From NCBI RefSeq assembly GCF_900111925.1, contig NZ_FOKA01000006.1:1-64000 (forward strand): a stretch of 64,000 nucleotides of DNA, given 5' to 3'. Source of the stretch: Cellulomonas marina. Its GTDB lineage: Bacteria > Actinomycetota > Actinomycetes > Actinomycetales > Cellulomonadaceae. Positions 40,130 to 50,922 of the stretch are shown piece after piece; position 1 is the first letter of the stretch, and each line of letters opens with the position of its first letter. A program made the translations under genes and the position numbers. Below the pieces are notes generated by a model. It was not told the origin of the DNA, searched no databases, and worked only from the letters and a program-made list of their open reading frames with translations.

Positions 40130-40855
40130 ATGAGCGCCCGGGCTGCTGACGGGCGACGAGCCGGCCGCTGGGCGGTGCTCGTCGCCGTGCTGGTGCTCGT
40201 CGCCGTGGTGCTCGGCGGGCTGTGGTGGGCCGACGGCTGGGCCGGTCGGCGGGTGCGCGACGGGGTGGCGCTTGCCGTGGCCGAGGCCGTCCCCGGCGCT
40301 CGCGGCGAGCCCGAGGTCGTCGTGCACGGGTGGCCCGTGCTCACGCAGCTGGTCGCCGGCCGGCTGGAGCGGGTCGACGTCCGGCTCGACGGCGCGACGC
40401 TCGACGGCGTCGACGTCACGGACGTGAGCGGGCGGCTCCGCGGGGTCAGCACGGGCGTGGCCCCCACCGCGGAGGACGCCGTCCTGCACGCCACCGTGCC
40501 GGTGGCGTCGCTGCAGGCCCTCGTCGACGAGCAGGTGGACGTGGACACCGAGCTGGCCGTCCGGGACGGCGCGCTGACCGCCGACCTGGAGGTCCTGCGG
40601 CTGCCCGTCCGGGTCGAGCTGGGCCTGCGGGTCGAGGACGCCCGCCTGCTCGTCGACGTCGTCGGCGGCACCGTGGCGAGCGCGCGGGTGGACGTCGACG
40701 ACCTCCCGGGCGTCCTGGCCAGCCGGGTCCAGGGGCTCGAGGTGCCGGTCGCGGGCCTGCCGGCCGGCCTCGCGCTGACGGACGCCGAGGTGGTGGCCGA
40801 CGGCGTGCGGGTCCGTGCGGCCGGGACCGACGTGGTCCTGACGGCGTCGTCGTGA
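40130..40855 (+). CDS. DUF2993 (LmeA-like) exported protein
   Basis: A 241-residue protein with one N-terminal membrane helix (WAVLVAVLVLVAVVLGGLWW) and an extracytoplasmic lipid-binding-type domain: ARRVRDGVALAVAEAVPG-like start, VHGWPVLTQLVAGRLERVDV, then repeated beta-hairpins. Mycobacterial LmeA is involved in lipomannan/mannan elongation; that role here is only by family. Its stop overlaps the start of the M50-like gene. Confidence 0.85.
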   Translation: MSARAADGRRAGRWAVLVAVLVLVAVVLGGLWWADGWAGRRVRDGVALAVAEAVPGARGEPEVVVHGWPVLTQLVAGRLERVDVRLDGATLDGVDVTDVSGRLRGVSTGVAPTAEDAVLHATVPVASLQALVDEQVDVDTELAVRDGALTADLEVLRLPVRVELGLRVEDARLLVDVVGGTVASARVDVDDLPGVLASRVQGLEVPVAGLPAGLALTDAEVVADGVRVRAAGTDVVLTASS

Positions 40856-41569: not shown

Positions 41570-42316
41570 TCAGCCCGCGACGACGCACCGGTCGAGCCAC
41601 CGCGCCATGGCGTCCCGCTCGGCCGGCGTGACCCACAGGCCGTACGCCGCCTTCACCCGCACCTGCCGCAGCACGTACGCGCACCGGTACCCGGTCTGCG
41701 GGGGCAGCCACGTCGCGGCGTCGCCCGCGCCCTTCTGCTGGTTGGCGGGCCCGTCGACCGCGAGCAGGTTCGCCGGGTCGTTCGCGAAGGCCTCGCGCTG
41801 CTCGACCGTCCAGCCCTGGGCGCCCTTCTGCCAGGCGTCCGCCAGCGCCACGACGTGATCGATCTGGACCGCCGCGGAGTCCGGGCCGCGGCGGAAGGTC
41901 AGCGTGCTCCCCGTGTAGGGGTCCGCGAGCGTCCCGGCCACGACGACGCAGGCGTCCTCGGGGTCGGTCCGCACCGCCTCCAGGTCGCGCGCCAGCACGT
42001 CGTCACGGGTGCGGCAGCCGTTGCCGTCGACGTCCGCCCACGGCTCGCCGAACCGGGCGCGGTCGTAGCCCTTGCTCGGCGCGCGCCCCTTCACCGCCAG
42101 ACCCTCGAGGGCGGACCGCCCGGCCGCGAGGTCCTGCGCGGTGACGGGGAACCGGGCCGCCTGCTGGGCCTGCGTCCACACCGGCGTCCCGGCCCCGACC
42201 GCCACCGCGACCGCGAGCAGCACGAGCAGCGGCACCCATCCGGGCAGATGCCAGCGGCGTCGTCGGCGGGGTGGCCGGGTGCCCGGTCGAGGGGTCCCTC
42301 GGCGGGTCCTCGCCAC
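41570..42316 (-). CDS. Membrane-anchored or secreted HNH-family nuclease (DUF1524-like)
   Basis: A 248-residue protein: Arg-rich start, one membrane/signal helix (LPGWVPLLVLLAVAVAVGAG), then the nuclease region with CRTRDDVLARDLEAV, VQIDHVVALADAWQKGA, and NDPANLLAVDGPANQQKG, the pattern (DHxxAL...NDxxNLxxxxxxxNxxKG) of exported HNH nucleases widespread in actinobacteria. The catalytic His is in IDHV. Two cysteine pairs may form disulfides outside the cell. Start GTG 42316 is preceded by GGGAGG. No partner or immunity gene is evident. Confidence 0.85.
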   Translation of the reverse strand: MARTRRGTPRPGTRPPRRRRRWHLPGWVPLLVLLAVAVAVGAGTPVWTQAQQAARFPVTAQDLAAGRSALEGLAVKGRAPSKGYDRARFGEPWADVDGNGCRTRDDVLARDLEAVRTDPEDACVVVAGTLADPYTGSTLTFRRGPDSAAVQIDHVVALADAWQKGAQGWTVEQREAFANDPANLLAVDGPANQQKGAGDAATWLPPQTGYRCAYVLRQVRVKAAYGLWVTPAERDAMARWLDRCVVAG

Positions 42317-42347
42317 GTCCACCTCCCGCTTCACCTCGCCCGCGCTG

Positions 42348-42402
42348 GCACGCACCTCGCACGCACCTGGCACGCACACCGCACGCACCTCGCACGGGCA
42401 CC
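42348..42402. repeat. 11-bp tandem repeat upstream of the HNH gene (5 copies)
   Basis: Five contiguous 11-bp units related to GCACGCACCTC, between 32 and 86 bp upstream of the HNH gene start on the minus strand. Units 1 and 4 are identical; the fifth is diverged. Non-coding. Confidence 0.85.
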
Positions 42403-44310: not shown

Positions 44311-45150
44311 GTGGCCCGAACCGTACCGAGCCGCCGCACGCGTGGTTCGATCGCGACGACGTGCCGCGACACAGGACCCGAGGAGATCGCCCTGCTGCCC
44401 GACCCCCTGCCCGCCACGCCGCCCGCCACACCGCCCGCCACACCGCCCGCCACACCGCCCGCCACACCGCCCGCCACACGGCCCGCCACACCGCCCGACG
44501 CCGTCCTGCTCGACCTCGACGGCACCCTCGCGGACTCCGAGCCGCTGTGGTCCCGGGCCACGGCGGAGCTGGCCGCCCGGCACGGCGCGCCCTGGGACGA
44601 CGCCACGGACGGCCACCGCATCGTCGGGTGGGCGATCCCGGACATCGCGGCGCTGCTCGTCGCGCGGGGCGTGGCACTGCCGTCCCCCGTGGTCGAGGAG
44701 TGGCTCAACGACCGCGTCGCCGCGCTCATGGGGGCCGAGCCGCCGTGGCGCCCGGGTGCGACCGCGCTGCTCGGCGCCCTCGTGGACGCCGGCGTGCCGA
44801 CGGCGCTCGTGACGATGACCTACCGACGGCTGGCGACGACGGTCCGCGACGCGGCGCCGCCCGGCGCGCTGGCGGTCGTCGTCGCCGGCGATGACGTGCG
44901 CCGCGGCAAGCCCGACCCCGAGGCGTACCTCACGGCCGCGGCGACCCTCGGCGCGGACCCGGCGCGGTGCGTGGCGGTGGAGGACTCCCTCACCGGCGTG
45001 ACCGCCGCGCTCGCCGCGGGCGCCCTCACGTACGCGGTGCAGCCCGCCACGGTCCTGCCCGCCGCGCTGGCCGATCACCCGCGGGTGCGGCGGGTGGACG
45101 GGCTGCCGGCGGTCGCGGCCGCGCTGGGGCTCAGCGCGGCGGGACGGTGA
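44311..45150 (+). CDS. HAD-superfamily phosphatase (beta-phosphoglucomutase-like subclass)
   Basis: HAD motifs: I LLDLDGTLADSEPLW, II ALVTMTYRRL, III GKPDPEAYL and IV CVAVEDSLTGV, with a helical cap between I and II. The fold starts near 44500. Upstream is a Pro/Thr tail from seven 12-bp repeats with no start codon inside; GTG 44311 is the nearest in-frame start and gives 279 residues. CTG codons after GAGGAG (about 44391) could initiate instead. Its last 20 nt overlap the convergent TetR gene. Substrate unknown. Confidence 0.82.
   Translation: MARTVPSRRTRGSIATTCRDTGPEEIALLPDPLPATPPATPPATPPATPPATPPATRPATPPDAVLLDLDGTLADSEPLWSRATAELAARHGAPWDDATDGHRIVGWAIPDIAALLVARGVALPSPVVEEWLNDRVAALMGAEPPWRPGATALLGALVDAGVPTALVTMTYRRLATTVRDAAPPGALAVVVAGDDVRRGKPDPEAYLTAAATLGADPARCVAVEDSLTGVTAALAAGALTYAVQPATVLPAALADHPRVRRVDGLPAVAAALGLSAAGR
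44410..44493. repeat. 12-bp tandem repeat in the HAD gene (7 copies)
   Basis: Seven units of CCCGCCACACCG; copies 2-5 are identical, 1 and 6 differ by one base. They encode the PATP repeat before the phosphatase domain. Confidence 0.92.
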
Positions 45151-45730
45151 GGTGCTCGAGCAGCTTCTCGACGAGCATCCGCTGCCGCCGCGGGGTGATC
45201 GCGTCCCCGCCGAGCGCCACTGAGGCACGCAGCCCGACGAGCAGCCACAGGGCCTCGTCCACCACCGTCTCGTCGGACTCGGCCGTCCGCACCTCGCCCC
45301 GGGCGCGGCCCTCACGCAGGTGCTGGTACATCCGCGTCCGGCAGCGCTCGTGGTGCCCGGCGAACAGCGCCGCCACGGCCCGGTCCTGCGTCGCCGCCTC
45401 CCAGAAGGCCGTGACGACCCGTGCCTCGAGGCGGCGCTCGTCGTCGAGGGGCAGCAGCTCCACCCACTGCCGCCGCAGCGCCTCGAGCCCCGTCGTGCCG
45501 TCGACCGCCGTGGCGACGCGGGCCTCCGCCCGCTCGAACGCCTGCCGGCACGTGGCGTGCAGCAGCTCGTCCTTCGTCGGGAAGTAGGGCTTGACCGCCC
45601 CGTTGGCGAACCCGGTGACCTCGGCCACGCGGCGCAGGGTCACGGCGGCGAGCCCCTCGTCGAGGATGAGCCGGCCCGTCGCCGCCACGAGCTCGTCGCG
45701 GCGGCGGTCGCGGTCCACCGTCCTGGGCAC
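45131..45730 (-). CDS. TetR-family transcriptional regulator
   Basis: A 199-residue repressor: RRDELVAATGRLILDEGLAA, VTLRRVAEVTGFANGAVKPY and FPTKDELLHA make the TetR HTH, followed by a helical ligand domain (ARVVTAFWEAATQDRAVAAL, WLLVGLRASVALGG). GTG 45730 has GGGAGGCGACC directly upstream. It is divergent from the 1116-residue helicase-like gene (226 bp apart), which makes that gene a candidate target, and convergent with the HAD gene with a 20-nt overlap. Confidence 0.92.
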   Translation of the reverse strand: MPRTVDRDRRRDELVAATGRLILDEGLAAVTLRRVAEVTGFANGAVKPYFPTKDELLHATCRQAFERAEARVATAVDGTTGLEALRRQWVELLPLDDERRLEARVVTAFWEAATQDRAVAALFAGHHERCRTRMYQHLREGRARGEVRTAESDETVVDEALWLLVGLRASVALGGDAITPRRQRMLVEKLLEHLTVPPR

Positions 45731-45955: not shown

Positions 45956-48900
45956 GTGCACGACGAGACGGCCGCCGCCGCGGCGCCGCCCGCGCCGGAC
46001 CCTTCGCCCGCTCCCGTGCCCTGGGCCGACGAGGTGCTCGGCGTCCCCCGCCGGCACCCGCTGCGGGACCTCGACGCGGTCCGCTCGGTCGTCCTCGACC
46101 TGCCCGACGAGGGCCGCGACCTGCTCGACCGCCTCGTCGAGGGGCGCCGCGTGCTGCTCGTCGCCGGCGAGCCCGCGGGGGGCGAGGGCGTGTGGCGCGT
46201 GCTCCCGCCGCCCGCGACGGCTGGGCCGGCCACCACGCCCGGTGTCACGCCCGGTGTCACGCCCGGTGCCCCGCCCGTGCCCGTCGACGAGCCCCCGGGC
46301 GACCCGCTCGAGGCGCTCGCCCGGGCGGCGGCGGCCGCGGACCGGCGCCTCGACGGCGCGGAGCTCGTCCTCGCGCTCGGCCGGCTGTCGGACGCCGACG
46401 ACGCCCCCGGCTGGTCCGTCGCCGCCGGCGGGAGCCGGCTCGGCCGCACCGCCGCCCTGCTCCTGCCCGTACGGCTGCACCCGTCGCCCGAGGCCCCCGA
46501 CGCGTGGGAGCTGCGGTGCGAGCCGGGCCGTCCCGCCCGCCGCAACGCCGCCGCGGGCCGCGCCGTGGCCGCCGAGCACGGGCCGCTCGCCGCCGCGCTC
46601 GCCGACCCCGCCCCCGTCCCGGTGACCCGGCTGGCCGGGGTGCTCGACGAGGTCCTCGCCGCCGCGACGCCACCGGTGCGCGCGACCCGCGCCGCCGAGC
46701 TCGCCCTCCTGCCGCTCGCGCCCCTCGAGGACGCGGCCGCCCTCCGAGCGCTGCCGCTGCCGGTCGCGGGGCTGAACCCGCGCGGGCCTTGCCCGGGGGT
46801 CGAGGTGCTCGAGACGCCCGCCGGGCCCGGCGGCACGCGCGCCGTGGCCGACGTGCTCGTCGCCGCGCTCACGGCCGGGACGCCGGTGACGGTCGTCGCC
46901 GGGCAGGACGCGGACCTCGACGACCTGGCCGCCCGGCTCGACGCCGCGGCCCTCGGACCCTTCGTGCTCGCGCTCACCGGGCGCGGCGCCACCGTGGGGG
47001 GGCTGCGGGACCGGCTGCGCAGCGCGGGGCGGCCCCCGGCGGCGCTGCTCGAGGGCGTCACGGGGGACGCCGCGGAGCACGCCGCGCTCACGGCCCGCCT
47101 GGCGCGCGACGACGCGGCCGGGCACCTGCCCGGCCCGGCCGGCGTGGCGCTGTGGGACGCGTTCGCGGCGGTGCTGCGGCTCGAGGCGGAGCTGCCGCCC
47201 GAGGCGGTCGCCCTCGCGCCGGCCCTGCCCGTCGGCGACCTCGCGCGGCGTCCGGACGCGCTGCCCGCGCTGCGGTCGACCGTCGCCGACCTGGCGGAGG
47301 CGCTCGTGGGGGGCGGGGACCCCGACGCGTGGGCCGCCGAGCACCTCGCGGGCACCGCGGAGGCCGACCTCGACCGCGTCGCCGTGGCGGTCACCGGCCT
47401 GCTCGCTGCCGACCGCGCCGTCCGCGCCACGGGCAGCGCGCTCGCCGACCTCGTGGCCGCCCCGCGCGTGCTGGTCGACGTCGCGGCGCACCTCGAACTC
47501 GTCGCCGCGTGGCTGGACGCGGGCGCGGCCTCGCGTCCCGTCGCCGCGTCCGCGTGCGTCCGGACCGTCGACGACTCCTGGCACGCCGCCGCGTCCGCCG
47601 CGCGGGCCGCGCTCGCCGGGGTCCGTTCCGCCGGGAGGGAGCTCGTCGGGCCGGACGGCTCCGTCGGCCCCGGTGCCCTCGGCCTCGACCTCGACGTCCT
47701 GGACGCGACCCTCGTCGCGACCCCGGAGCGGCGCTGGTGGCCCGAGCGGGACCGGCGCCGGCGCCGGGCCGCGGTGCTCGCCGCGCTCGCCCCGCACCGT
47801 CGGCCGGACGTCGCGCTCGAGCCCGACGACGCGCCCGGGCTCGTCGAGGCGCTGCTGGCGCTGCGGGACGCCGCGAGGGAGGTCGTCCGGCGGGTGGCCG
47901 CGGTCCCGGGGACCGTGCTGCCCCCCGGGTGGCAGCCCCTCGACGACGCCGCCGCCGACGCCCTGCTCGCCGACCTCGACCTGCGCGCGGCCACCGCCGC
48001 GCTGGCCACGGCACCCGGCGTCGGCCCGGGGGCCGTCGACGCGGCCGTGCCGCCCGGGCCGGCGGAGGCGCGCGCGGCGGCGGAGGCGGTCCGCGCGCTC
48101 GCGGCCGCGTGGTCCGCCCTGCCGGCCGCGCTCGGCACGGACCTGGCGGGGCTCGCGAGGGCGTGCGGCGACCGGCCCCCGGCCGCGGTGCTGACCCACG
48201 ACGGTCCGCGGTGGGCCGACGAGGTCGCGGCGGGCCTGCCCGGGCTGCGGGCGCGCGCGGGCCTGCGGCTGGCCCGGGCGGCGCTGCCCGACGAGGTCGC
48301 GGCGGTCCTGCTGCCCGACGGGCCCGGGGGCCGGCGACGCGCGCGGGTCGCACCGGAGCACCTCGTGGGCACGGTGGAGCTCGCGGCGGCCCACGCCGTT
48401 CTCGACGAGCGCCGGGCCGCCCTGGACCCGCGCTCCTCGGGCACCGCCGTGCTGCGGCCGGCCGAGCGGGCGGCCGTCGTCGATCGGCTGGCCGCCCTGG
48501 AGCTCGCGGAGCGGTCCGCGGCCCGGGCGCGCGTGCCGCTGCGGCTGCTCGCGGCCCTGCCGGAGGAGGCCCGCGTCGCCCTGGCCGACGGCCTCGTCGC
48601 CGACCTCGCGGCGGCCGTGCCGATGCGGCCCCTGTGGGCGTTCCTCGCGGGCCGCGGCGACGACCTGGCGGTGCTGCTGCCGGCGGTGCTCGTGCCCCTG
48701 GACCTGCTGGGCCGTGCCCTGCCGCTGCAGCACGAGGACGCGGTGCTCGTCGTGGAGGACGCCGGCCGGGTGCCGGCGGCGCGGGTCGCGGTGGCCGCGT
48801 CGCGGGCGCGCCGCGTGCTGCTCGTCGAGCGCACGGGAGGGGCGCCCCCCGACCCGGCCAGCGCCCTCGTCGTCCTCGGCGCCGGTGCGTCCCCCGTACA

Positions 48901-49306
48901 GGACGGCGGCGGCCCCCGGCGGCCGGAGCTGCGGGCGGCCGGCGGCGGCCCGGCCTGGGGGCGGCACCGGGCGGCCGTGGCCGCCGCGCTGGTGGCGGCG
49001 GGCCTCGTCGTGCGCGACCCGGCCGGTCCGGAGGGGACGGTCGCGGACCTCGTCGTCGGACGGGCCGACGGGTCCGGGGTCGCCGTGCTGCTCGACCGGC
49101 CGGCGCCCGGGGCGCCCGCCGGCAGCAGCAGCGGCGACGTGGCGCTGTCGGCCTGGCTGCAGGGCCGTGACGACGGGGGCTCCTGGGCCGCGGTGCGTAC
49201 CGTGACCGCGGCCGCGTGGCTGACCGTCCCGGACGGTGTCGTCCAGGACGTGGACGCAGCGCTGCCCCCGGTGGCGGGATCCGCTGCACGTCACACGATG
49301 AAGTGA
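45956..49306 (+). CDS. Degenerate SF1 (DUF4011-type) helicase-like protein without NTPase motifs
   Basis: Not an obvious family member at first sight: 1116 residues, very rich in Ala, Arg, Asp and Leu. Four segments read like the large actinobacterial DUF4011/AAA_11 helicases. About 165-215 has LLPVRLHPSPEAPDAWELRC and RRNAAAG...EHG. About 280-320 has the place of motif I, but with TPAGPGGTRAV (287-297) instead of GPPGTGKS, then GTPVTVVAGQDADLDDLAARL. About 910-965 has the motif II/III region as VEDAGRVPAARVAVAASRARRVLLVE instead of DEASQ and GDPKQ. About 1001-1090 resembles the MTES_1575 endonuclease-like domain with ADLVV in place of DLAV. No GKT/GKS and no DEAD/DEAS-like box exists anywhere. 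The frame is intact. Its stop overlaps the SDR start. GTG start. Confidence 0.7.
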   Translation: MHDETAAAAAPPAPDPSPAPVPWADEVLGVPRRHPLRDLDAVRSVVLDLPDEGRDLLDRLVEGRRVLLVAGEPAGGEGVWRVLPPPATAGPATTPGVTPGVTPGAPPVPVDEPPGDPLEALARAAAAADRRLDGAELVLALGRLSDADDAPGWSVAAGGSRLGRTAALLLPVRLHPSPEAPDAWELRCEPGRPARRNAAAGRAVAAEHGPLAAALADPAPVPVTRLAGVLDEVLAAATPPVRATRAAELALLPLAPLEDAAALRALPLPVAGLNPRGPCPGVEVLETPAGPGGTRAVADVLVAALTAGTPVTVVAGQDADLDDLAARLDAAALGPFVLALTGRGATVGGLRDRLRSAGRPPAALLEGVTGDAAEHAALTARLARDDAAGHLPGPAGVALWDAFAAVLRLEAELPPEAVALAPALPVGDLARRPDALPALRSTVADLAEALVGGGDPDAWAAEHLAGTAEADLDRVAVAVTGLLAADRAVRATGSALADLVAAPRVLVDVAAHLELVAAWLDAGAASRPVAASACVRTVDDSWHAAASAARAALAGVRSAGRELVGPDGSVGPGALGLDLDVLDATLVATPERRWWPERDRRRRRAAVLAALAPHRRPDVALEPDDAPGLVEALLALRDAAREVVRRVAAVPGTVLPPGWQPLDDAAADALLADLDLRAATAALATAPGVGPGAVDAAVPPGPAEARAAAEAVRALAAAWSALPAALGTDLAGLARACGDRPPAAVLTHDGPRWADEVAAGLPGLRARAGLRLARAALPDEVAAVLLPDGPGGRRRARVAPEHLVGTVELAAAHAVLDERRAALDPRSSGTAVLRPAERAAVVDRLAALELAERSAARARVPLRLLAALPEEARVALADGLVADLAAAVPMRPLWAFLAGRGDDLAVLLPAVLVPLDLLGRALPLQHEDAVLVVEDAGRVPAARVAVAASRARRVLLVERTGGAPPDPASALVVLGAGASPVQDGGGPRRPELRAAGGGPAWGRHRAAVAAALVAAGLVVRDPAGPEGTVADLVVGRADGSGVAVLLDRPAPGAPAGSSSGDVALSAWLQGRDDGGSWAAVRTVTAAAWLTVPDGVVQDVDAALPPVAGSAARHTMK
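46235..46270. repeat. 12-bp tandem repeat in the helicase-like gene (3 copies)
   Basis: Three units of ACGCCCGGTGTC (last with one change) encode TPGV repeats in a Pro-rich linker near residue 95. Confidence 0.85.
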
Positions 49307-50196
49307 TGACAGACAACACCGCACCCGACCCGCGCGAGGCCCACCCCGGCACGGAGGCCCAGGACGCCGAGACCATCGCCCACCCGGGTCTCACCGGCGA
49401 CATGCCCTCCGAGCCCGACCACGGCGAGGAGAGCTACGTCGGCCACGGCAAGCTCGACGGCCGCAAGGCCCTCATCACCGGCGCCGACTCCGGCATCGGC
49501 CGCGCCGTCGCCATCGCCTTCGCCCGCGAGGGTGCCGACGTGGCCATCTCCTACCTGCCCGAGGAGGAGGAGGACGCGAAGGTCACCGCGTCCTGGGTGG
49601 AGAAGGCCGGCCGGAAGGCCGTCCTGCTGCCCGGGGACATCCGCGACGAGTCCTTCTGCACGCAGCTCGTCGAGAGCGCCGCCTCCGGGCTCGGCGGCCT
49701 CGACGTGCTCGTCAACAACGCCGCGTACCAGATGGCGCAGCCGGCGGGCCTCGAGGACATCACCACCGAGCAGCTCGACCGCGTCTTCAAGACCAACCTC
49801 TACGCGATGTTCTGGATCACGCGGGCGGCCCTGGCGCACCTCGGCGCGGGCTCGACCATCGTCAACACGAGCTCCGTGCAGGCCTTCCAGCCCAGCCCGC
49901 CGCTGCTGGACTACGCCACGACGAAGGCCGGCATCCTCAACTTCACGAAGGGCCTGGCGGAGACCCTGGCCGAGAAGGGGATCCGCGTGAACGCGGTGTG
50001 CCCCGGCCCGATCTGGACCCCGCTCATCCCCGCCACGATGCCCGAGGAGAAGGTCGACGAGTTCGGCGGCGACACGCCGCTCGGCCGCGCCGGCCAGCCG
50101 GCGGAGATGGCCCCGGCCTACGTCTACCTGGCCTCGCCGGACTCGAGCTACGTCACCGGCGACCGCATCGTCGCCACGGGCGGCAAGATCGTCTGA
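49306..50196 (+). CDS. SDR-family oxidoreductase (GSP39/YdaD-YghA-like)
   Basis: NAD(P)-dependent dehydrogenase of 296 residues: about 45-residue N-terminal extension, then ALITGADSGIGRAVAIAFAR, NNAAYQ, NTSSVQAFQP, the catalytic YATTK, and the PGPIWTPLIPA block. The EGADVAISYLPEEEEDA stretch places it with the general-stress SDR group (YdaD, YghA, YhxD). Substrate unknown. Its ATG overlaps the stop of the helicase-like gene (TGATG), so the two are co-transcribed. Confidence 0.93.
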   Translation: MTDNTAPDPREAHPGTEAQDAETIAHPGLTGDMPSEPDHGEESYVGHGKLDGRKALITGADSGIGRAVAIAFAREGADVAISYLPEEEEDAKVTASWVEKAGRKAVLLPGDIRDESFCTQLVESAASGLGGLDVLVNNAAYQMAQPAGLEDITTEQLDRVFKTNLYAMFWITRAALAHLGAGSTIVNTSSVQAFQPSPPLLDYATTKAGILNFTKGLAETLAEKGIRVNAVCPGPIWTPLIPATMPEEKVDEFGGDTPLGRAGQPAEMAPAYVYLASPDSSYVTGDRIVATGGKIV

Positions 50197-50205
50197 CCGG
50201 ACGGC

Positions 50206-50271
50206 GGCCGGGACCCGTCACGCGTGACTCGTCGCGTGACCCGTCACGCGAAGCGCGACGGGTCCCCGGCC
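50206..50271. terminator. Bidirectional terminator hairpin between SDR and yciO
   Basis: About 18 bp of imperfect stem: 50206-50224 pairs with 50254-50271, with an inner GTCACGCGTGAC palindrome in the loop. It begins 10 nt after the SDR stop; the yciO stop codon is inside it. Confidence 0.65.
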
Positions 50272-50864
50272 CCCTCCCGCACGACCTCGGGCGACCCGCC
50301 CGTGAGGTCGACGACCGTCGTCGGCGTGGTGCCGCAGTCGCCCGCGTCGACGACGGCGTCGAGCACGTCGTCGAGCTCCTCCTTGATCTGCCAGCCCTCG
50401 GTCATGGGCCACTCGGCCCCGGGCAGCAGGAGCGAGGAGGACAGGATCGGCTCGCCGAGCTCCGCGAGGATCGCCTGCGCCACCGGGTGCTGCGGGATCC
50501 GCACGCCGACGGAACGCTTCTTGGGGTGCGCCAGCCGTCGCGGGACCTCCGGCGTGGCCGGGAGGATGAAGGTGTACGGCCCCGGCGTCGCGGCCTTGAT
50601 GGCCCGGAAGGCGCTGTTGGACAGGTCGACCATCTGCCCGAGCTGCGCGAAGTCCGCGCACACGAGCGTGAAGTGGTGCTTGTCGTCGAGGTGCCGGATG
50701 CGCCGGATCCGCTCCGCGCCCCCGTGGTTCTCCAGCCGCGCGCCGAGGGCGTAGCAGGAGTCCGTCGGGTACGCGATGAGCGCGTCGTCGCGGAGCTGCG
50801 CCACGACCTGCGAGATCGCGCGCGGCTGCGGGTCCTGCGGGTGCACGTCGTAGTAGCGGGCCAC
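50244..50864 (-). CDS. yciO: YciO/YrdC-domain (Sua5-like) protein
   Basis: A 206-residue protein co-linear with E. coli YciO: MARYYDVHPQDPQPRAI, VAYPTDS-type IAYPTDSCYALG, RHLDDKHHFTLVC, ATPGPYTFILPATPEVPRRL, ILSSSLLLPG and PTTVVDLTGGSPEVVREGAG. The YrdC fold binds RNA/ATP and in Sua5/TsaC makes threonylcarbamoyl-AMP; YciO itself is a paralogue of uncertain role. GTG 50864 is chosen because a TAGCGT -10 box (minus) ends 7 nt upstream; the alternative GTG 50873 lies inside that box. Confidence 0.92.
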   Translation of the reverse strand: MARYYDVHPQDPQPRAISQVVAQLRDDALIAYPTDSCYALGARLENHGGAERIRRIRHLDDKHHFTLVCADFAQLGQMVDLSNSAFRAIKAATPGPYTFILPATPEVPRRLAHPKKRSVGVRIPQHPVAQAILAELGEPILSSSLLLPGAEWPMTEGWQIKEELDDVLDAVVDAGDCGTTPTTVVDLTGGSPEVVREGAGDPSRFA

Positions 50865-50871
50865 GACGCCC

Positions 50872-50877
50872 ACGCTA
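50872..50877 (-). promoter_or_regulatory. -10 box (TAGCGT) of yciO; leaderless start
   Basis: Minus strand TAGCGT, then 7 nt, then GTG 50864. It decides the start codon and implies a leaderless mRNA. Confidence 0.5.
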
Positions 50878-50885
50878 GGCCGCCG

Positions 50886-50922
50886 CGCGCCGGGCGCCAC
50901 CGCGAGGGCGGCGCCCGGCGCG
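50886..50922 (-). terminator. Terminator hairpin after the FKBP lipoprotein gene
   Basis: A perfect 13-bp stem CGCGCCGGGCGCC / GGCGCCCGGCGCG around an 11-nt loop, 13 nt beyond the stop on the minus strand. Confidence 0.75.

Follow-up and report, generated by a model that had tools for sequence, protein, structure and literature searches.

The window analysed here is a stretch of 64,000 nucleotides from Cellulomonas marina (contig NZ_FOKA01000006.1, positions 1 to 64,000, forward strand). Its plus strand carries at 45956-49306 a gene for a helicase-like protein in which every nucleoside triphosphatase (NTPase) motif is replaced, here called the pseudo-helicase. The gene and its parts are as follows.

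45956..49306, plus strand: pseudo-helicase gene, 1116 amino acids, with a GTG start and a G-rich stretch directly upstream; NCBIfam ProA match at E 4e-21
46022..46765, plus strand: DUF4011-like (pre-ATPase beta) domain, residues 23-270, with WADEVLGVPRRHPLRDL where relatives have WKxxLLDLSLRNxLLNL
46814..46837, plus strand: dead Walker A (motif I), residues 287-294, TPAGPGGT replacing GPPGTGKS in the alignment with intact relatives
47069..48676, plus strand: long all-helical insertion between motifs Ia and II, residues 372-907, aligned to the ProA profile; AlphaFold2 predicted local distance difference test (pLDDT) values mostly 80-95
48749..48766, plus strand: dead Walker B (motif II), residues 932-937, VVEDAG replacing FDEASQ
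48824..48841, plus strand: place of motif III, residues 957-962, VERTGG at the GDSKQMPP (GD.KQ) position of intact relatives
48842..48949, plus strand: short low-confidence linker, residues 963-998, at the place where relatives have an entire RecA2 domain with motifs IV-VI
48950..49261, plus strand: PD-(D/E)xK-like domain (MTES_1575/Vsr type), residues 999-1102, placed by alignment and model, without a Pfam match

The replacements TPAGPGGT, VEDAG and VERTGG were found as a preliminary description of this locus had given them. Alignment with intact relatives set VEDAGR at the FDEASQ position, and none of the patterns GxxGxGK[ST] (Walker A), DEASQ and GDxKQ was matched. Judged by these sites, the protein cannot be a motor. 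It had also been described as full-length, which did not hold: RecA2 with motifs IV-VI is missing in both this protein and its orthologue (alignment gap from SWHYRS to NVAITRAR), as are the C-terminal part of intact relatives, of winged helix-turn-helix (wHTH)/DUF3320 type, and about 450 N-terminal residues. In the PD-(D/E)xK-like domain the acids at 1031, 1047 and 1061 were kept (1047 is Glu in the orthologue), and the TARDRD/TVADRD motif of intact relatives was lost, including the arginine of its DR motif. The model, predicted with alignments of intact relatives, gave a putative Upf1-like superfamily 1 (SF1) fold, RecA1 and 1B matching SF1B helicases, and a predicted PD-(D/E)xK-like fold for the C-terminal domain. 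A 12-bp tandem array lies within the gene (window 46233-46281, TPGVTPGVTPG); the orthologue has a separate TTGP array at a different place.

The NCBIfam profile ProA (NF058533) matched residues 284-875, covering RecA1, the helical insertion and motif II, at 74.2 bits (curated cut-off 1500 bits), and PADLOC PDC-S37 matched at E 2.8e-6. By hhalign the protein reached 99.2% to ProA. BLASTP against the intact protein at locus L108 of Actinotalea solisilvae gave 32% identity over 707 residues (E 2.5e-35). Chance homology was ruled out, as the best score against the two intact relatives L108 and L103 was 137 bits and 200 locally (block-)shuffled copies gave at most 31.2 bits. The orthologue matched DUF4011 (PF13195) at E 1.8e-4 (22.0 bits, cut-off 22.2) and MTES_1575 (PF18741) at E 0.25 (11.9 bits, below the cut-off of 38.2). 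For the pseudo-helicase itself the Pfam search, DUF4011 included, gave no match at E ≤ 1, and its C-terminal piece no match to PF18741 at E ≤ 10. Protein-database searches with the whole protein and with residues 535-790 returned only itself among the matches listed, probably because Ala-rich words take up the candidate list. A contig scan gave 320 pattern matches, with no relative among them. With the SEG filter, tblastn against 80 named loci gave no match at E ≤ 1e-8 or 1e-10, whereas unmasked BLASTP did match; neighbour genes, compared by tblastn with the same 80 loci, had no locus in common with L108. A match in genome G019 (E 2.7e-4) was a separate protein, of solute-binding type from reading its translation, and was dropped; the G004 match was an intact ProA. 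By its sequence the gene is genuine, and so is its relationship to Upf1-like SF1 helicase-nucleases, those of DUF4011/MTES_1575 (ProA, Hhe) type.

The frame of 1116 codons is open throughout, as first described. Its intactness over 3.3 kb had been taken to argue against a decaying pseudogene, but a long open frame is by itself weak evidence here, because guanine plus cytosine (GC) content is 82.7% and the antisense of the stretch is likewise open, over 1397 codons. Plus-strand coding was supported by the GC content of the three codon positions (.91/.61/.97), and the plus strand is the coding strand because its translation is homologous to ProA. A spurious frame, with coding on the other strand or on none, would fit the open antisense. 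It is hardly conceivable, being ruled out by the ProA homology, by divergence from the orthologue that is highest at plus-strand third positions (.304/.352/.472 by codon position) and by the orthologue's syntenic place on the plus strand.

That orthologue was found by synteny alone, using the following neighbours.

49306..50196, plus strand: short-chain dehydrogenase/reductase (SDR), PRK06128-like oxidoreductase, whose start overlaps the pseudo-helicase stop by 1 base
45131..45730, minus strand: TetR-type regulator, divergent, start inferred, assigned by family match; without a match in the orthologue's locus
50244..50900, minus strand: Sua5-like gene, the synteny anchor

The names Sua5 and FKBP (a further neighbour) are labels that we assume. 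The Sua5-like gene was matched in 60 of 60 genus genomes, closely (≥69%) in 58 and only distantly in G001 and G029. Its neighbourhood was examined in 20 of the 60 and in G014, and the orthologue was present only in G059, a sister Cellulomonas species. There the order FKBP-like, Sua5-like, SDR (88%), orthologue, ParA-like and two more genes is kept. The TetR gene is divergent from the pseudo-helicase, as had been noted, and gave no tblastn match at the G059 locus; it is therefore not a constant companion. Coupling to the SDR gene was confirmed in the window, where the stop (TGA, 49304-49306) and the SDR start (ATG, 49306-49308) form TGATG; in G059 the SDR start lies 18 nt behind the orthologue's stop, without overlap. 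A GmrSD_C-type protein at window 41573-42385 also keeps its synteny in the orthologue's locus.

The orthologue has 1201 amino acids from its first Met in a single continuous frame, and the two genes are 49.5% identical over 1080 aligned codons with 26 gap runs, both frames staying open. The dead motifs are the same in both species, as the preliminary description had proposed to check: TPAGPGGT, V[ED]DAGRVPA and RARRVxLVERxGGA are common to the two proteins. Identity between them was 83% at motif I (reached by 1.3% of windows along the alignment) and 86% at motif III (1.9%), compared with 63% at motif Ia (15%), 71% at motif II (14%) and 66% in the nuclease part (6%). Neutral simulations, run 4 times for each of 27 settings, gave amino-acid identities of 26-30% and second-position differences of.48-.51 where divergence at four-fold sites was 0.38-0.44. 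The observed values were.449, 49.5% and.352. Identity lies far above the simulations, and the protein was therefore constrained, though loosely.

To find relatives, a motif I region profile was run against 81 genus genomes (E ≤ 1e-5) and 150 family genomes (E ≤ 1e-8), with at most 54 and 29 candidates scored per genome. Thirteen of the 81 matched. The 11 matches outside C. marina (G000) and G059 sit in frames of 1427-2173 codons; eight of these loci carry GPPGTGKSQ and FDEASQ, and G073, G044 and G045 were left out of this reading. Among family genomes 17 matches were obtained, none above 48.5 bits apart from G000. Intact homologues exist in Actinotalea (A. solisilvae) and elsewhere, so that the motif loss is derived and the ancestor was very probably active. 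Relatives with intact motifs had been named beforehand as a sign that this copy is simply broken; they were found, but the syntenic orthologue is equally dead. In G005 a ProA-type gene is divided between two neighbouring frames, 1546 and 800 codons long (contig C9, 122164-127855), by a frameshift or an assembly error. The ProA profile detected in C. marina only the pseudo-helicase gene and a second gene, on contig C14, and no intact family member. G059 yielded a C14-type gene besides the orthologue, plus a weak match (E 8e-7) in an 864-codon frame, and G014 yielded no more than a C14-type gene and, near the Sua5-like gene, a protein of 720 amino acids (L078:9172-11331, minus strand). Two parts of the L108 protein match this last protein with 43% and 49% identity, and by these alignments it is a remnant derived from an Actinotalea-like ProA. 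It shares this origin and position with the pseudo-helicase but has retained just the helical part and DUF3320; neither a RecA domain nor a nuclease was seen in it.

The C14 gene (L010:3069-7958, minus strand) encodes 1630 amino acids and represents a core family of the genus, 1440-1870 residues long. Among the matches listed, a core gene (at least two profile segments in one frame) was present in 38 of 40 genus genomes; of the others, G035 had a single segment, located at the end of a contig, and G013, a genome 89% complete, had none. In G028 the core gene is split into frames of 993 and 1112 codons (contig C1, 3006433-3009902), through a frameshift or an assembly error. The C. marina member belongs to the same superfamily as the pseudo-helicase and likewise lacks Walker A, Walker B and GD.KQ; it differs in keeping a degenerate RecA2. 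G....GK[ST], DEASQ and GD.KQ are absent from all 21 aligned core loci (L010, with L045-L064 and L180 among the loci), which keep the GD of motif III, and none of the best 120 of 524 database relatives matched the G....GK[ST] or DEASQ pattern. These best 120 of 524 are mostly from Cellulomonas, with single records from Cellulosimicrobium and Brevundimonas, and mostly named ‘hypothetical protein’; other names are ‘restriction endonuclease type II-like’, ‘Helicase’ and ‘ATP-binding protein’. An mscL gene match adjoins the core gene in 14 of the 21 loci, which reach differing distances.

In a tree of 35 rows the core family grouped with an intact type of about 1430 residues (support 100), apart from the pseudo-helicase, which was placed only loosely within ProA (supports of 31-47, stem length 2.45). 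Because of this grouping, and of the hhalign value of 99.2% to ProA compared with 52% to the core family, two separate losses of the NTPase motifs are suggested, tentatively in view of the long branches. The NTPase-dead core family is a more interesting result than the pseudo-helicase. The chances are slightly better than even that SF1 helicase-nucleases of the ProA/MTES_1575 type turned NTPase-dead at least twice in Cellulomonas and were kept, as the core family near mscL and independently as the pseudo-helicase in two sister species, and that no pseudo-helicases of this defence-type family had been described before them, their job being ATP-independent. No dead member of the DUF4011/ProA family was described in the literature searched, as judged mainly from abstracts and passages.

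For the pseudo-helicase we favour, as rather probable, a remnant of an anti-phage-type helicase-nuclease that is NTPase-dead, would bind nucleic acid without ATP and has been kept as a protein. An intact helicase-nuclease of the ProA/MTES_1575 type (SF1, Upf1-like), now called anti-phage, would have lost, by sequence, ATP binding and hydrolysis, RecA2 and its C- and N-terminal parts in the lineage of the two sister species. The DUF4011/1B-like domain, the ATP-dead RecA1, the long helical domain and the PD-(D/E)xK-like domain would have been kept thereafter. Such a protein would be expressed, and its RecA1/helical part and nuclease-like domain may grip nucleic acid or a partner protein without ATP, perhaps in defence or DNA processing. 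By analogy, RecC/AddB and Deinococcus radiodurans PriA, with dead helicase folds, may serve as models for this action.

Several results weigh against this reading. In C. marina and G059 the gene diverges much faster than its surroundings, six neighbours being 62-89% identical. A ratio of nonsynonymous to synonymous divergence (dN/dS) well below 1 had been anticipated and was not obtained: the Nei-Gojobori (NG86) estimates were dN.463 and dS.677, giving 0.68 for the whole gene and 0.50 to 0.91 in five regions, highest in the last 141 residues, all rough because dS is saturated. For the core family member of the same species pair (75% identity) dN/dS was 0.29, and for the FKBP-like neighbour about 0.74. 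Only G000 and G059 of the 81 genus genomes scored above 200 bits with the motif I profile, the next reaching 56.8 bits. The protein has no Ile, no Tyr and a single Lys, its final residue, in 1116 amino acids. The expected structural match to SF1 helicases was found for the predicted RecA1 and 1B but not for the whole: Foldseek gave no match at E ≤ 0.001 for the whole model or the nuclease-like part, and the models lean towards intact relatives because the folds were predicted with their alignments. Fast divergence, dN/dS and rarity fit slow decay too. An acquired ProA-type gene might have lost its function and stayed open since stops are rare at 83% GC, its frame held partly by the SDR coupling. 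The loss of half of the domains, the open antisense frame, the TGATG overlap and the extreme composition agree with such a relic, which we nevertheless consider rather unlikely. The frame is single and continuous in both species despite the 26 gap runs, identity exceeds the neutral expectation, second-position GC has not drifted up to the third-position level, the dead sites of motifs I and III show conservation, and the 1-base SDR overlap of one species is an 18 nt gap in the other. Thus a pseudo-helicase of the DUF4011/SF1/MTES_1575 kind, as proposed beforehand, stands on the shared motif loss and the identity above neutral, though not as a full-length protein.

The motif loss may stem from strong GC drift at a time of relaxed constraint, the remainder being retained afterwards; drift is a possible driver because a Walker A lysine can hardly survive at such composition. 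The orthologue and the core member of C. marina have no Lys, whereas two intact ProA of the genus have 22 and 29, and Phe, Tyr, Met, Ile, Asn and Lys together make up 0.7% of the pseudo-helicase and about 10% of two intact relatives. It is improbable, further, that the protein serves some unrelated active motor as a dead subunit, in the way that RecC or AddB serves RecB/AddA and RecD, although what is reported of those proteins shows a similar fold and a similar type of loss (dead SF1 fold with an altered PD-(D/E)xK domain; RecC, PMC1185551; AddB, PMC4824097). A Pfam scan of six neighbour genes found no helicase motor. RecA2, retained in RecC and AddB, is absent here. A partner in the form of an active paralogue had also been suggested, but the ProA profile found only the second NTPase-dead member in the genome. 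Very unlikely, finally, is a motor-less yet active nuclease. The three retained acids and the PD-(D/E)xK-like fold kept in the model would allow it; the lost TARDRD/TVADRD motif and the C-terminal dN/dS of 0.91, the highest of the five regions, argue against it.

With ProA and PDC-S37, its best profile matches, the protein shares the order DUF4011, RecA1, helical insertion, motif II/III, nuclease, and differs in its score and in lacking the NTPase motifs, RecA2 and the C-terminal wHTH-type part. The MTES_1575 architecture, as given in passages of PMC3710099, comprises a transglutaminase, an SF1 helicase, a Vsr-type restriction endonuclease and two wHTH overlapping DUF3320, with a HEPN domain too. 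Both have the RecA1 of an SF1 helicase and, towards the C-terminus, a part of Vsr/PD-(D/E)xK-like kind, whereas the transglutaminase part, RecA2, wHTH and the helicase catalytic motifs are gone here. A DUF4011 gene is reported in a passage of PMC10250203 to flank a defence hotspot of P. aeruginosa. The PriA pseudohelicase of D. radiodurans, according to PMC4504706, lost its motifs and retained DNA binding without ATPase; it is likewise a helicase fold with lost motifs, but of another helicase family and with a known role in replication restart. The closest working analogues are RecC, with an inactive nuclease-like domain (PMC1185551), and AddB, with a helicase-like domain (PMC4824097). They too join a dead SF1-like fold to a nuclease-like domain, but act within complexes with active motors, of which none is known for the pseudo-helicase. 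Dead helicases with a retained role, which also reportedly include Utp25 (PMC9539457), show that the helicase fold has uses without ATP. In one genus a defence-type helicase-nuclease family has seemingly been converted to dead proteins more than once, and one such family is near-universal in the sampled Cellulomonas species and mostly labelled ‘hypothetical protein’. Where defence finders identify the ProA family by profile, their counts can include proteins that are unable, judged by sequence, to hydrolyse ATP. Cellulomonas strains are culturable, and direct testing is therefore feasible.

Elsewhere in the window, a frame of 241 amino acids without Lys, Ile or Tyr (40130-40855) is a candidate gene or a chance frame. 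A 12-bp tandem array, GCCCGCCACACC, with 7.4 copies at 44409-44497, lies between the ParA-like and HAD-type genes and is open in the frames of both.

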